From the NCBI GenBank assembly GCA_009773355.1, contig WRPG01000027.1, forward strand, positions 1-62,144: a stretch of DNA of 62,144 bases. The letters are read 5' to 3'. The stretch is from Limisphaerales bacterium (GTDB lineage: Bacteria > Verrucomicrobiota > Verrucomicrobiia > Limisphaerales > SXTU01). This document shows positions 13,236 through 58,348 of the stretch, piece after piece. Position numbers and translations under genes: made by a program. The notes beneath the pieces are model-generated. The model worked only from the letters and a program-made list of their open reading frames with translations. It was not told the origin of the DNA and did no database searches. The stretch's first letter is position 1. Every line of letters begins with the position of its first letter.

Positions 13236-13326
13236 GTAGGTGACGAGGTGACGAGTCTCCAATCAACTCGGAGCGCGAAACCCGGAACGCGGAAACAAGT
13301 CAGAGACTCCTCACGTCGTCTCCTAC
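13236..13326. repeat. REPIN-like element, GTAG heads (GACGTGAGGAG family)
   Basis: The outer ends are GTAGG and CCTAC. The right arm read on the minus strand is GTAGGAGACGACGTGAGGAG; the left arm is the variant GTAGGTGACGAGGTGACGAG. It is 91 bases long, 8 bases after the argA stop. The same family is at 32334-32483 and 58272-58348. Confidence 0.8.
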
Positions 13327-23260: not shown

Positions 23261-24404
23261 ATGTTCGACATGGTGAAAGTCCAGTTGGTCGCCACGGCAG
23301 AAAAACTCGCCCAGATGCGGAGGTTTCTTTGACTGGCCGGGCACGCAGAAACGGCTGGCGGAGCTGGACTCCGTGATGGCGCAGGAGTCGTTTTGGAACA
23401 ACCGCGAGTCGGCACAGAAGGCCATTGACGAGGCGAACGCCCTCCGCAAGAAGGTGGACCCGCTCCTCGCCGCCGAGAAGCAGCTCGAGGATTTTCGCAT
23501 GATGGTCGAACTGGGCGAGGCCGAACCCGTCGAAGCCCAGCCCGCCGTGCTTGCCGAGGTCACGCGCGATCTGGACAAATTCGTCAAGGAACTCGACGCG
23601 CTGGAACTGCGCTTCCTCCTCAAAGGCCCGCACGACAAGAACGGCTGCATCCTCAGCATCAACGCCGGCGCGGGCGGCACCGAGGCGCAGGACTGGGCGA
23701 ACATGCTGTTGCGCATGTATCAGCGCTGGGCCGAGCTGCGCGGTTGGAAGGCGGAAGTGACCGACATTCTCCAGGGCGAGGTCGCCGGCGTGAAGAGCGC
23801 CACCATGACCATCGAAGGCGAGAACGCCTACGGCTTTGCCAAGGCCGAGCGCGGCGTGCATCGCCTCGTCCGCATCTCGCCGTTTGATTCGAACCAGCGC
23901 CGGCACACGAGCTTCGCCAGCGTGGACGTCATCGCGGAGATTGAGGAGGCCGGCGACATCGTCATCAACCCCATTGACCTGAAGACCGACACCTTCCGCT
24001 CCGGCGGCAAGGGCGGGCAGAACGTGAACAAGGTCGAGACCGCCGTCCGCATCACGCACGTTCCCACCGGCATCATCGTCGCGTCGCAAGGCCAGCGCTC
24101 GCAGCACCAGAACCGCGCGACGTGCATGAAGATGCTCCTCGCCAAGCTCTACGCGCTCCGCGAGGACCAGCAGAAGTCCGAGATGGAACGCTTCTACGGC
24201 GAGAAGGGCGCGATTGGCTTCGGCCAGCAGATTCGCAGCTACGTCTTCCAGCCCTACCGCATGGTGAAGGACCTCCGCACCGGCGTGCAGACCAGCAACG
24301 TGCAGGCCGTGATGGACGGCGCGCTGGACGACTACGTCAACGCCTGGCTCCGCGCCGGCTGCCCGCAGAAGCGGATGCAGGGGGTGCAGGATGAAGAAGA
24401 GTAA
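23261..24404 (+). CDS. prfB: peptide chain release factor 2 (programmed +1 frameshift)
   Basis: Reads UAA/UGA stop codons. Codons 1-23 (23261-23329) end at an in-frame TGA (23330-23332). A +1 shift at CTT-T-GAC continues from 23331 to 24404, giving 380 residues. The shifted frame holds the RF2 anticodon tripeptide SPF ([15 protein letters not shown]) and the peptidyl-transferase motif [12 protein letters not shown] near residue 251. The TGA is an autoregulatory stop, not a mutation. Starting downstream at 23373 would truncate the conserved N-terminal domain. It ends 1 base before an iterated-word repeat. Confidence 0.95.
23318..23333 (+). promoter_or_regulatory. prfB +1 frameshift site
   Basis: CGGAGGTTTCTTTGAC: an internal Shine-Dalgarno-like GGAGG three bases before the slippery CTT, followed by TGA-C. 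This is the same arrangement as the classic RF2 autoregulation site; low RF2 favours slippage past the TGA. Confidence 0.93.
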
Positions 24405-24405
24405 G

Positions 24406-24533
24406 CAGTGTTCAGTGTTCAGTATTCAGTCGCGAACGTGGCTCGACGGCTTACTGAACACTGGTTACTGAATACTGAATACTGAATACTGAATACTGAA
24501 TACTGAATACTGAAGACTGATTACTGAACACTG
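24406..24533. repeat. iterated-word inverted pair (ACTGAATA type)
   Basis: The left arm is CAGTGTTCAGTGTTCAGTAT. The right arm has about nine tandem copies of the 8-base word ACTGAATA with variants, ending ACTGAACACTG. It lies between prfB and trpC and ends 2 bases before the trpC start. Confidence 0.9.
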
Positions 24534-24535
24534 CC

Positions 24536-26940: not shown

Positions 26941-27041
26941 GTAGCCGCCGACGTGAGGAGGCGGAAACCGTGCTGCGTGCTGCGTGTTGCGTGCCTGCGA
27001 CCGAACGCGCCCGGCACGCAGCACGCAACACGCAACACGCA
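26941..27041. repeat. compound repeat: GTAG half-element plus GTGCTGCGTG inverted pair
   Basis: 26941-26965 is a single arm of the GTAG + CCGCC...GGCGG family (loop GACGTGAGGA). 26970-27041 is a full inverted pair of GTGCTGC/GTGTTGC words. The two abut, and the arsS-like gene starts 8 bases later. Confidence 0.8.
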
Positions 27042-27049
27042 GTCGGAGT

Positions 27050-28051
27050 TTGAACCGCTTTGCGCAATCCCTTTCCCGCCACGGCCTCGCGCTGCGCCGC
27101 GCGCCGTTGCACACGCTGCAAATCAACGTCGGGCGCAAGTGCAACCAGACCTGCCGCCACTGCCATGTGGACGCGGCACCGTGGCGCACGGAAATGATGG
27201 ACGCCGAGACCGCCCGCCGCGTCGCCGACTGGATTCAAGCGCATCGCCCCGCCGTGGTGGACATCACGGGCGGTGCGCCGGAGTTGAGCGAGCATTTCCG
27301 TTTGCTCGTCGAGACGGCGAGAGCGAGCGGCGGCCATGTGATTGACCGCAACAACCTCACCATCATCGAGACGGAGTCGTTCGGCTGGCTGCCGGAATTC
27401 CTCGCGGCGAACGAGGTGGAAGTCATCGCCTCGCTGCCGTGCTACCTGGAGGAGAACGTCAATGCCCAGCGCGGCGACGGCGTGTTCGAGAAAAGCATCC
27501 GCGCGTTGAAGAAACTCAACGCCGTCGGCTACGGCACGCGGTTGCCACTGAACCTGGTTTACAACCCGCTCGGGCCGAAGCTCCCGCCGCCGCAGGCCGA
27601 GTTGGAGGTGGATTTCAAAGCCGCGCTGCGCGCCCGCTTCGACATCGAGTTCACACACCTCTTTACCATCACCAACCAGCCCATCGCCCGCTTCGCGGAG
27701 GACTTGCGTGCGCGCGGCGAGTGGGATGCCTACCTTGAGCTGCTCGCCAATTCGTTCAATCCCGCGACCGTGGACGGCCTCATGTGCCGGAGCACACTGA
27801 GCGTCGGCTGGCGTGGCGAACTCTACGATTGCGACTTTAACCAGATGCTCGGGATGCAACTGCGCGGTAGCCGCCGAGGTGGGGAGGCGGAGGGTTCCGG
27901 CGCGAGTCGCGTTCCGCCTCCTGACCTCGGCGGCTACTTTCTCTGGGACGTGACGCCCGCGAAACTGGCTGGCCGTGCCATCCTCACCGGCGACCATTGC
28001 CTCGCCTGCACGGCCGGCGCGGGCAGCAGTTGCGGTGGCGTGCTGGCGTAG
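27050..28051 (+). CDS. radical SAM protein, ArsS-like (arsenosugar biosynthesis family)
   Basis: A 333-residue radical SAM enzyme. The cluster motif is CNQTCRHCHVDAAPW near residue 26, followed by DITGGAPELS. Near the C-terminus are the paired motifs LYDCDFNQMLGM and HCLACTAGAGSSCGG, the signature of the ArsS/DUF3641 family. ArsS acts in arsenosugar formation with ArsM; no arsM is in the window, so the role here is unproven. TTG at 27050 is taken as start because upstream frame is pure repeat. Residues about 273-296 are encoded by a GTAG-headed inverted repeat (27867-27937). The TAG stop is the GTAG head of the next repeat. Confidence 0.88.
   Translation: MNRFAQSLSRHGLALRRAPLHTLQINVGRKCNQTCRHCHVDAAPWRTEMMDAETARRVADWIQAHRPAVVDITGGAPELSEHFRLLVETARASGGHVIDRNNLTIIETESFGWLPEFLAANEVEVIASLPCYLEENVNAQRGDGVFEKSIRALKKLNAVGYGTRLPLNLVYNPLGPKLPPPQAELEVDFKAALRARFDIEFTHLFTITNQPIARFAEDLRARGEWDAYLELLANSFNPATVDGLMCRSTLSVGWRGELYDCDFNQMLGMQLRGSRRGGEAEGSGASRVPPPDLGGYFLWDVTPAKLAGRAILTGDHCLACTAGAGSSCGGVLA
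27867..27937. repeat. REPIN-like element inside the arsS-like gene
   Basis: Outer ends GTAG and CTAC. Left arm GTAG + CCGCC...GGCGG; the right arm is its inverted copy with loop GAGGTCAGGA. 71 bases, read through in frame, between the conserved FNQML and LWDV blocks. Confidence 0.88.
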
Positions 28052-31032: not shown

Positions 31033-32337
31033 ATGCTACTTCTTCGTCTGGCCCCGCACGGGCGTGCCTTCGTCGCCGGCGCAGGATTTCTCGCCTGCGT
31101 CACCTCGCTCCCCGCCGCCGACTGGCCCGCGTGGCGCGGGCCGAATGGTGACGGCTCGTCTCCGGAGAAAAATGTCCCGCTGCAATGGAGCGCCACCGAG
31201 AACGTGCGTTGGAAAGTCGAGCTGCCCGAGCCGGGCGATTCCTCGCCGGTCGTTTGGGCCGACAAGCTTTTCCTCACGCAGTCCTTCGAGAAGGACGGCG
31301 GCCGCACCGTGATGTGTTACGACCGCCGCGATGGGAAGCTGCTCTGGAAGTCCGGCACGACGTGGACGCAGCGCGAGCAGCGCTACGGCAAGAACCCGCA
31401 CTGCGCCGCGTCGCCGGTGACGGACGGTGAGCGGGTCATCGCCTTCTTCGGTTCGGCGGGGTTGTTCTGCTTGGACATGAACGGCAAGGAGCTGTGGCGG
31501 CGCGACCTCGGCCCGCACGCGCACGAGTGGTCCTACGCCGCCTCGCCGCTCATGCACGGCGACGTGTGCGTGCTCTACTTCGGCCCCGGCGCGAACGCCC
31601 GGCTCATCGGCCTCGACAAGAAGAACGGCAAGACCCTGTGGGAGTTCAAGGAGCCGGCCCCCGAGTCCCGCCCGCGCACCGACGGCTTCAAGGGCCAGGA
31701 GGCGAAGGGAACCATCGGCACGTTCGCCACGCCCATCATCGTGCGCGCCGGCCAGCGCGATGAACTCATCCAGACCTTCCCGCAATTCACGCGCGCCTTC
31801 GACTCGCGCACGGGCAAGGCACTCTGGCACTGCGATGGCTTGAACGAACTCGTCTATTGCTCGCCCGTGGCCGGCGAGGGCGTGCTGGTGGCGATGGGCG
31901 GCTTCTTCGGCACCAGCCTCGCCGTGAAGACCGGCGGCAGCGGCGACGTGACCGGCACACACCGGCTCTGGCAGACCGTCCGCACCAAGAACCGCCTCGG
32001 CACTGGCGTCATCTCCGGCGGCCATGTTTTCATCCTCAACACCGAGGGCATCGCCGAGTGTCTGAACCTCAAGACCGGCGAATCCCTCTGGCAGGAGCGC
32101 GTGAAAGGCACCGGCAGGAAGGGCGATTCGTGGTCCTCGATGGTGTTGGTGGACGGCCACATCCTCTGCCTCAACCAAAGCAGCGAGACCATCGTCCTCA
32201 AGGCCAGCCCGAAGTTCGAGCTGGTGCGCGTGAACGCGCTGGACGGCGACCTCTGCAACTCCACCCACGCCATCAGCCACGGGGAAATCTTCATCCGCAC
32301 GCACAAGCATCTGTGGTGCATTGGGAAGAATCGGTAG
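31033..32337 (+). CDS. secreted PQQ-like beta-propeller protein
   Basis: A 434-residue protein. A signal peptide (about residues 1-28, ending LPAADW) is followed by WRGPNGDGSSPEKNVPLQW, the usual start of verrucomicrobial/planctomycete BamB-like propellers. Repeated blades have the GKLLWKSG/GKTLWEFKEP pattern. Two similar secreted propellers occur at 40076-41305 and 53800-55008, so this is a paralogous set. PQQ binding is not assured: the family includes non-enzymatic propellers. The TAG stop is the head of the GTAG repeat at 32334, so the mRNA 3' end is structured right at the stop. Confidence 0.88.
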   Translation: MLLLRLAPHGRAFVAGAGFLACVTSLPAADWPAWRGPNGDGSSPEKNVPLQWSATENVRWKVELPEPGDSSPVVWADKLFLTQSFEKDGGRTVMCYDRRDGKLLWKSGTTWTQREQRYGKNPHCAASPVTDGERVIAFFGSAGLFCLDMNGKELWRRDLGPHAHEWSYAASPLMHGDVCVLYFGPGANARLIGLDKKNGKTLWEFKEPAPESRPRTDGFKGQEAKGTIGTFATPIIVRAGQRDELIQTFPQFTRAFDSRTGKALWHCDGLNELVYCSPVAGEGVLVAMGGFFGTSLAVKTGGSGDVTGTHRLWQTVRTKNRLGTGVISGGHVFILNTEGIAECLNLKTGESLWQERVKGTGRKGDSWSSMVLVDGHILCLNQSSETIVLKASPKFELVRVNALDGDLCNSTHAISHGEIFIRTHKHLWCIGKNR

Positions 32338-32483
32338 GAGACGACGTGAGGAGTCTATGACTTCCGCCACATCGGAGCGCAGGTGTCCAACCTGCGCGTT
32401 CGCAACTTGGCTTCCTCGCGCAGAGTGGACTCCTGCGCTCCTGCTCCTGGGGTTGAAGCGAGCCTTCTCACGTCGTCTCCTAC
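32334..32483. repeat. REPIN-like element, GTAG heads, containing a second element
   Basis: Outer arms are GTAGGAGACGACGTGAGGAG (32334) and the inverted copy ending CGTCGTCTCCTAC (32483). The left head supplies the stop codon of the propeller gene. A GGAG-headed element (32374-32441) sits between the arms. Confidence 0.85.
32374..32441. repeat. nested REPIN-like element, GGAG heads
   Basis: Left arm GGAG + CGCAGG-TGTCCAA-CCTGCG. The right arm on the minus strand is GGAG + CGCAGG-AGTCCAC-TCTGCG. Same family as 48024-48090. It is located wholly inside the GTAG element. Confidence 0.82.
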
Positions 32484-32581: not shown

Positions 32582-33910
32582 ATGACGCGCCGTCGCTGGC
32601 TGCAGGGCGGGGGCGCGCTGGCCGGGGCGATGTTGTGGCCGCAGTTGCTCCGCGCGAAGGAAACGCAGAAGGCCGGCAGTTCCCCCGCGCGCGCCTGCAT
32701 CGTCATCTACCTTCAGGGCGGCCTCTCGCACTACGAGAGCTTCGACCCGAAGCCGGACGCGCCGTCCGCCTATCGCAGCACGTTCAGCGACATCCCCACG
32801 ACGCTGCCGGGCATTCACTTCGCGGAGCACCTGCCGTTGCTGGCGAAGCGCGCCCACAAGTTCAGCCTCATCCGCAGCGCCTACGTGGACTCGCCGAGCC
32901 ATCCGGTGGCGATTTACCAGACGCTGACCGGCGGCGATTTGCCCGATGCCTCGGTCGAAGCGAAGAACCGCAACCTCGCGCACCCGAGCATCGGCTCGGT
33001 CATCGCGCGGGCGTGCGGCGCGCGGGCGCCGTTGCTGCCGCCTTACGTCGCGATTCCGCACTCCGGCCAGCTTGGAAACCGCGTCCACTACGCCACGGCG
33101 GGTCCGCTGGGCGTGGCGTATGAGCCGCTGGAGTCCGGCATCCCGCCCGAGGACGCGCGCACGCCGTTCGGCGGCCCGCAGGATTTGCGGCTAAACCAAG
33201 GTCTCTCCGGCAAGCGTCTCGAAGACCGGCTCATGCTTTTGAGCGCGCTCGGGGGCCAGGCTTCCGCTGCCGCCGTGGATGGACTCGACAAGTATCACCG
33301 CCACGCGCTCGAAATGCTTTCCGGCGGCGCGGCGGGTGGAGCCTTCGACCTCAGCCGCGAGCCGCTGCGCCAGCGCGAGCGTTACGGCCATCATCTTTGG
33401 GGCCAGCAGACCATTCTCGCGCGCCGGCTAGCCGAGGCGGGCGTGCCGTTCACCTTGCTCAACTACACGCTCAACCAGGAGCGCGGCCAGGACTGGGACA
33501 CGCACGAGGACAATTTCAACCTGATGAAGGACCGCCTGCTCCCGCCGATGGATCTCGCGGTGAGCGCGCTGCTGGACGATCTCGAAGAGCGCGGTCTGCT
33601 GGATACGACACTCGTGGCCATGTTCGGAGAGTTTGGGCGCACGCCCAAGATCAACGCCAATGCAGGCCGTGACCATTGGGAGAAAGTCTTCTCCGTGATG
33701 CTCACCGGAGGCGGCTTGAAGCGCGGCGTGGTGGTCGGCTCCAGCACCAAGGCCGGTGACCTGCCGCTCGACCGCCCCGTCCATTTCAACGACGTGCTGG
33801 CGACCATCTACCGACAGCTTGGAGTCGCGACCGACGAGGTCTTCCACAACGCCTTCGGCCAGCCGGTGCCGGTGCTGGCGCGCGGCAAGGTGATTGAGGA
33901 GCTGGTTTAG
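32582..33910 (+). CDS. DUF1501 family secreted protein (Tat leader)
   Basis: A 442-residue protein. MTRRRWLQGGGALAGAMLW is a twin-arginine leader. The DUF1501 domain follows (CIVIYLQGGLSHYESFDPKPD, DWDTHEDNFNLMKD, VAMFGEFGRTPKINANAGRDHW). It is the second DUF1501 protein in the window (the first is at 5268-6665). Here the upstream neighbour is a propeller rather than a PSCyt protein. Function unproven; exported. The ATG at 32582 is chosen for the leader; the 244 bases upstream are almost entirely repeat. Confidence 0.9.
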   Translation: MTRRRWLQGGGALAGAMLWPQLLRAKETQKAGSSPARACIVIYLQGGLSHYESFDPKPDAPSAYRSTFSDIPTTLPGIHFAEHLPLLAKRAHKFSLIRSAYVDSPSHPVAIYQTLTGGDLPDASVEAKNRNLAHPSIGSVIARACGARAPLLPPYVAIPHSGQLGNRVHYATAGPLGVAYEPLESGIPPEDARTPFGGPQDLRLNQGLSGKRLEDRLMLLSALGGQASAAAVDGLDKYHRHALEMLSGGAAGGAFDLSREPLRQRERYGHHLWGQQTILARRLAEAGVPFTLLNYTLNQERGQDWDTHEDNFNLMKDRLLPPMDLAVSALLDDLEERGLLDTTLVAMFGEFGRTPKINANAGRDHWEKVFSVMLTGGGLKRGVVVGSSTKAGDLPLDRPVHFNDVLATIYRQLGVATDEVFHNAFGQPVPVLARGKVIEELV

Positions 33911-43998: not shown

Positions 43999-44188
43999 CC
44001 CCAGTAGGTCAGGCATCCTACCTGACATCTAACTCCATCAAGGTGCTCCCGTGCAGACGCGCACTCGGTCTCCTCACGCACCCCGTTTCGCCTCAAGGCG
44101 GATTTGCCCGCTATCTGAACTGGAGCCGTCTGCGAAGCTCGCCCGCGGTGTCAGATGGATGTCAGGCAGGATGCCTGACCTACTGGGG
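43999..44188. repeat. long REPIN-like element, GTAG heads
   Basis: Left arm CCCCA-GTAG + GTCAGG-CATCCTA-CCTGAC. The right arm on the minus strand is CCCCA-GTAG + GTCAGG-CATCCTG-CCTGAC. 190 bases. The right head supplies the TAG stop of the golvesin-domain gene (44182-44180, minus strand). Confidence 0.88.
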
Positions 44189-58271: not shown

Positions 58272-58348
58272 GTAGGAGACGACGTGAGGAGTCTCTGATT
58301 TGGTTCTGCGTTCCGAATTGATTGGAGACTCGTCACCTCGTCACCTAC
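58272..58348. repeat. REPIN-like element, GTAG heads (GACGTGAGGAG family)
   Basis: The left arm is GTAGGAGACGACGTGAGGAG. The right arm on the minus strand begins GTAGGTGACGAGGTGACGAG. 77 bases, between the small lipoprotein gene and lgt. Confidence 0.85.

Follow-up and report, generated by a model that had tools for sequence, protein, structure and literature searches.

REPINs were described as regularly spaced, inverted doublets of headed hairpins with a less conserved spacer, which occur in many copies and have a RAYT gene lying between like hairpins (Bertels and Rainey 2011, PMC3116915; Nunvar et al. 2010, PMC2817692). In the model presented in PMC8266576, the last two bases of the head, A and G, choose the CT cleavage site. 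GTAG-tagged REP dimers were reported in hosts including the verrucomicrobium Opitutus terrae; in that account the dimers were also found inside longer palindromes, and RAYT was flanked by GTAG REPs in most, not all, GTAG species (PMC3733652). Insertion of small bacterial repeats into one another was described for the pneumococcal BOX, RUP, and SPRITE elements (PMC3049150).

The locus analyzed here is a clean instance of nested small mobile repeats, an event of the kind already described in PMC3049150, although the pneumococcal elements belong to other repeat families and another phylum. IS elements targeting REPs (PMC1525189) resemble our case in that a mobile element lands in a REP. Those are, however, full IS with REP-specific insertion according to that source, whereas here a small doublet lies in a spacer. 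We consider it quite likely that the spacer of an earlier GTAG-headed doublet, already present between the genes for a beta-propeller and a DUF1501 protein, received a GGAG-headed, REPIN-like doublet by insertion. The nest leaves the understanding of the system unchanged, and its interest is that a series of steps at one locus (empty, outer only, outer plus inner) orders two hairpin families without a clock.

The window, that is, the whole stretch of 62,144 nt that was analyzed, is contig C96 of a Limisphaerales genome of 6.16 Mb in 162 contigs (G000), and it was compared with ten genus mates (G001-G010). The initial annotation had described a GGAG pair (32374-32441) lying wholly inside a GTAG pair (32334-32483), and both inverted pairs were found at those coordinates (Table 1). 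It had also noticed that the outer element gives the propeller gene its stop codon; indeed, the TAG stop occupies 32335-32337, within the GTAG head. The outer arms are 23 nt each, 91% complementary, and separated by 104 nt, and the inner arms are 25 nt each, 88% complementary, and separated by 18 nt, forming an inner element of 68 nt. Folded as single-stranded DNA, the 150-nt composite reached -50.1 kcal/mol (z -8.76), a value attained by none of 200 shuffles. The start of the DUF1501 gene was set by similarity to relatives; the open frame itself starts at 32321 and crosses the composite.

Table 1. Positions of the genes and repeat parts at the nested locus in the window
Feature	Position	Strand	Remarks
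Upstream gene, PQQ/BamB-like beta-propeller protein	31033..32337	+	ORF; PF13360 PQQ_2, E 2.2e-21
Outer left arm	32334..32356	+	GTAG head and weak imperfect hairpin
Putative left remnant of outer spacer	32357..32373	.	
Inner left arm	32374..32398	+	GGAG head and hairpin; 7-bp stem CGCAGGT/ACCTGCG, loop GTCCA
Inner spacer	32399..32416	.	
Inner right arm	32417..32441	-	AGGAGTCC-type, inverted; differs from left arm in 3 of 25 nt
Putative right remnant of outer spacer	32442..32460	.	Ends TTGAAGCG
Outer right arm	32461..32483	-	Inverted; 2 mismatches to left arm
Downstream DUF1501 gene	32582..33910	+	Adjoins beta-propeller gene in 6/10 genus mates

The outer arms are of the type GTAGGAG(A/C)CGACGTGAGGAG. 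With at most one mismatch, the outer core GACGACGTGAGGAG was found at 110+131 = 241 places in G000, against 2+2 = 4 for the reversed control, and at 11-123 places per genome in the ten genus mates (control 2-8), exceeding the control in all 11 genomes. Within the window, all 23 nt of the focal left arm recur identically at 13304-13326 (other strand) and 58272-58294, and another GTAG-type doublet at 27867-27937, near the 3' end of the ORF 26984-28051, is read through. Three sub-types differ by stem changes on both sides: GAGAC/GTCTC, AGCC/GGCT, and CCGCC/GGCGG. The 27 distinct arms (of 67) paired in 0.807 of cells, above the maximum of 0.726 in 500 shuffles; these shuffles, like those for the inner arms below, ignore relatedness, and a few oddly matching arms retained in the set lowered the paired fraction. 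A single focal outer arm folded no better than its shuffles (z 0.27, 122/200). None of the 16 Y1_Tnp loci in the 11 genomes was flanked by outer arms in a scan that reached about 1.5 kb and allowed 4 mismatches; the outer pair of L052 lies in the neighboring dadA-like gene, and L212 has a single weak match, with 4 mismatches, some 0.8 kb off. The outer family shares with the GTAG REP dimers, as described in PMC3733652, the GTAG head, the dimeric form, a spacer within the described 20-100 nt, and presence inside ORFs with the addition of 20-30 residues, but differs from that description in the weak hairpin of the single arm and in the 16 Y1_Tnp loci without an outer-flanked RAYT. It is probably a GTAG-headed REP family whose transposase partner was not found in these 16 loci.

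We collected 29 inverted outer pairs from 830,678 nt of G000, a sample that includes the window and stretches of C24, C74, and C159 partly picked for long-spacer candidates. In 25 of the 29, the 20-nt arms were 29-57 nt apart, so the range of about 30-45 given by the initial annotation was slightly narrow, while its statement that the focal spacer is unusually long held. The remaining four spacers measured 109, 110 (the focal pair), 200, and 354 nt. By eye, GGAG doublets lay inside the focal pair and the C24 pair, another palindromic repeat lay inside the C74 and C24 pairs, and the C159 pair contained neither. Removal of the 68-nt inner element from the focal pair leaves 42 nt, in the ordinary range, in agreement with the earlier reading of the spacer as usual length plus insert. 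Spacer ends like TTGAAGCG were also seen by eye in several other outer copies.

The inner family begins with GGAGCGC. With at most two mismatches, the focal inner arm was found at 89+85 = 174 places in G000 (control 0+0) and at 0-3 in each of the ten mates. When any pair of the form GGAGCGC...GCGCTCC was counted, G000 had 139 against 31 for the control pattern, and the mates had 3-47 against 10-30; the excess was most evident in G008 (47 vs 16), and G001, G002, and G006 had no excess over control. The focal left arm forms a strong hairpin (fold z -4.01). The inner stems covaried (paired fraction 0.939; highest value among shuffles 0.908), and 22 of 37 inner-type doublets were exactly 67 nt long.

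Three matches to Y1_Tnp were present in G000. One of them, at C27:165344-165580, lies within a unit that has GGAG hairpins at both ends (L052, 1060-1140 and 1817-1943), and its protein scored 90.1 bits against NCBIfam NF047646, 'REP-associated tyrosine transposase' (cut-off 80). This unit was absent from G001, G002, G008, and G010, where its flanking genes lie close together. A second RAYT, in G008 (83.8 bits), is flanked by GGAG hairpins with a different stem (L207), and in both genomes the hairpins surrounding the RAYT have the genome's own stem. A Y1_Tnp match of G006 surrounded by GGAG hairpins (L210) was not accepted as a firm RAYT; its E value was 7e-5 and it lies inside an open frame of 1159 residues.

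The inner family thus has the inverted pair of headed hairpins at regular spacing, a high dispersed copy number (174 arms in G000, control 0), and a RAYT gene flanked by like hairpins, as well as the less conserved spacer described for REPINs in PMC3116915 and PMC2817692. Its head is GGAG instead of the GTAG/GTGG of those sources, and therefore we call it REPIN-like only; it also comes from another host group. GGAG does keep A and G as its last two bases. The family is REPIN-like, and its doublets would be mobile as a unit by the action of RAYT. With 11 genomes, several GGAG and GTAG sub-types, and two RAYTs with matching hairpins, the genus offers a view of RAYT/REPIN co-evolution outside the usual hosts.

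All ten mates match parts of the query, and six keep the two genes adjacent. G003 and G010, where the upstream gene was not found beside the DUF1501 gene, and G005 and G007, with other sequence after the upstream gene, were left out. Neither element was present at the locus in five of the six informative mates (G001, G002, G004, G008, and G009), whose alleles scored like shuffles for outer arms (fractions 0.09-0.99). In the sixth, G006, an outer pair is present in decayed form at that same place, and here too the gene ends at a TAG within the left arm. The G006 arms agree with the consensus in 15/17 (left) and 11/12 (right) positions, and the summed score was reached by none of 2000 shuffles; the right arm, shortened to 12 nt, had a shuffle fraction of 0.0095 when taken alone. 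The locus (L059) is identical to VHDH01000051.1. The inner doublet is not in the G006 locus, and GGAGCGC does not occur at the focal locus in any of the six mates.

The comparison with relatives proposed in the initial annotation thus yielded an outer-only allele at the same place. It did not yield the exact target site: divergence of the G006 spacer prevents a base-by-base alignment, and the flanks are too diverged for a base-level empty-site comparison of target-site duplication or target base. The two findings named in advance as contradicting an insertion were not obtained. The composite was present in none of the six informative mates, and in the sampled DNA outer arms enclosed 2 of the 42 GGAG doublets whose arms matched well (18/23 bases or more alike; 8 of 50 rows dropped), a fraction that is no nesting rate because both stretches (the window and C24) were sampled as already known. 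With both families being dispersed repeats, the outer pair standing alone in G006, and the spacer arithmetic fitting, the proposal of one mobile unit inserted into another is supported. The relative age of the families fits as well: counts of the outer core are above control in all 11 genomes, and G000 is the only one in which the focal inner sub-family is abundant.

Given the outer-only allele of G006 and the five empty mates, stepwise formation of the composite is most likely, with the outer pair arriving before the inner one. A GTAG doublet would have settled between the beta-propeller and DUF1501 genes, and a GGAG doublet would then have entered its spacer. The inner doublet may have been moved in trans, as single-stranded DNA, by the RAYT of C27, which would recognize it through its GGAG-headed hairpins, and it would have carried its own spacer along. 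The outer pairs of G000 and G006 would derive from one insertion.

The history of the outer pair was examined with four trees, in one of which G006 stood next to G000. That tree, built from up to nine DNA segments, separated G000 and G006 weakly from the other nine genomes (SH-aLRT 84.5, bootstrap 64). G006 was placed with G003 and G004 in a one-gene protein tree (85/85), which left the place of the window genome open, and in a two-gene DNA tree (71/71). A seven-genome protein tree joined G000, G004, and G006 (100/100), with G004 and G006 nominally together (40/61). G004 is empty at the locus, so under these three groupings a single shared outer insertion would need a loss. The simplest reading is one outer insertion in the ancestor of G000 and G006, perhaps with a loss in G004, and a second outer insertion is possible.

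If the G006 pair were an independent insertion at a permissive spot by the stop codon, the shared allele would be no proof that the outer element came before the inner. Three of the four trees, lacking G006 next to G000, speak for this, and so does a dadA-like FAD oxidoreductase gene in which one in-frame site has been hit by different elements (L052:2351-2423, G000 C27:166194-166266; L307-L315), so that the outer pair of G006 could also be a separate hit. At the dadA-like site, G000 and G010 carry a GTAG doublet of one sub-type, G005 and G008 carry one of a different sub-type, and the aligned sequence of G004 reads as a GGAG doublet; the site is empty in G001, G002, G003, and G006 (four of the eight mates examined, with G007 and G009 left out). 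All differences among the allele lengths (195, 198, 210, and 120 nt) are divisible by three, and the insert adds about 25-30 residues. A second doublet, of GGAG type, lies in frame in the same gene (L052:2758-2844, G000 C27:166601-166687) and was absent from all four relatives aligned there. Insertion of different elements at one site thus occurs in the genus, perhaps because few gene positions tolerate insertion; PMC3733652 describes a like case in recB. We nevertheless regard an independent insertion in G006 as unlikely. The outer core was found at only 6+5 places in G006 (control 2+0), and with so few copies a chance second hit at the focal locus is improbable. Sub-type and position match between G006 and G000, and the location of the inner pair inside the outer one by itself argues for outer-first.

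It is doubtful, but conceivable, that doublets of different families share a preference for certain permissive spots, among them one another's spacers and single in-frame sites in genes, with a landing machinery that favors DNA already extruded or single-stranded. If this were true, targeting and not chance would have produced the nest. Another nest was present in G000 at C24:20220-20613 (L009), where an outer pair has a 354-nt interior with a GGAG doublet and a palindromic repeat of the CCCCTCATCCGGCC type. A third, at L236:1405-1563 (G010 C41), is an outer pair of mixed sub-type enclosing a GGAG doublet with a different stem. The pattern GTGAGGAG-N8..38-GGAGCGC occurred at 36 places in 8 of the 11 genomes (control 20), and among the 30 pattern loci scanned only the focal locus (L243) and L236 had two outer arms with a recognized GGAG hairpin between them. 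Several other pattern loci were rejected as nests, being ordinary outer spacers of the GCGGAGCGC type. At C28:66016 (L227), a GGAG doublet lies beside one outer arm only.

We also considered whether the inner arms had inserted singly around pre-existing DNA, in which case the inner spacer would be old outer spacer and not cargo. Inner spacers do mostly differ while the total length is nearly fixed (exactly 67 nt in the 22 doublets above), and short look-alikes were seen by eye in the empty alleles of two sites. In 19 comparisons of spacers with empty alleles at seven sites, however, the lowest shuffle fraction was 0.10, and a host-derived spacer was unsupported at all seven. Retaining the 18-nt inner spacer at the focal locus would give an outer spacer of 60 nt, above all 25 ordinary pairs. 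Some doublet copies, moreover, have a spacer in common: 14 of 666 spacer pairs scored at least 9, beyond the shuffles, and four scored at least 12, which no shuffle did, although common CG ends raise these scores. Doublets of G000 and G007 at one site (site E) have similar spacers (14/21 bases, by eye), which also speaks against single arms. The focal spacer had no close match among those of the 36 other doublets (best score 9, C110:17947). Arms inserted one by one are thus very improbable. From the ordinary 42 nt left after removal, the empty alleles lacking the spacer, and the copies sharing spacers, we conclude that the inner spacer most likely travels with its arms as a unit.

A chance concentric arrangement of unrelated palindromes, or repeats misjoined in assembly, is hardly credible: the contig does come from an incomplete genome and both elements are repeats, but both families are far above their controls, the sequences on either side match the same gene pair in six relatives, and further nests occur at C24:20220-20613 and in G010 (L236).

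Other repeats were noticed in the course of this analysis. A further dispersed repeat, about 147 nt long (L142:8847-8993), has many matches in G000 and some in the mates. The window also contains a cluster of short AGTATTCAGT-type repeats at 24400-24534 and a long inverted repeat at 43999-44188, with 36-nt arms lying 118 nt apart.
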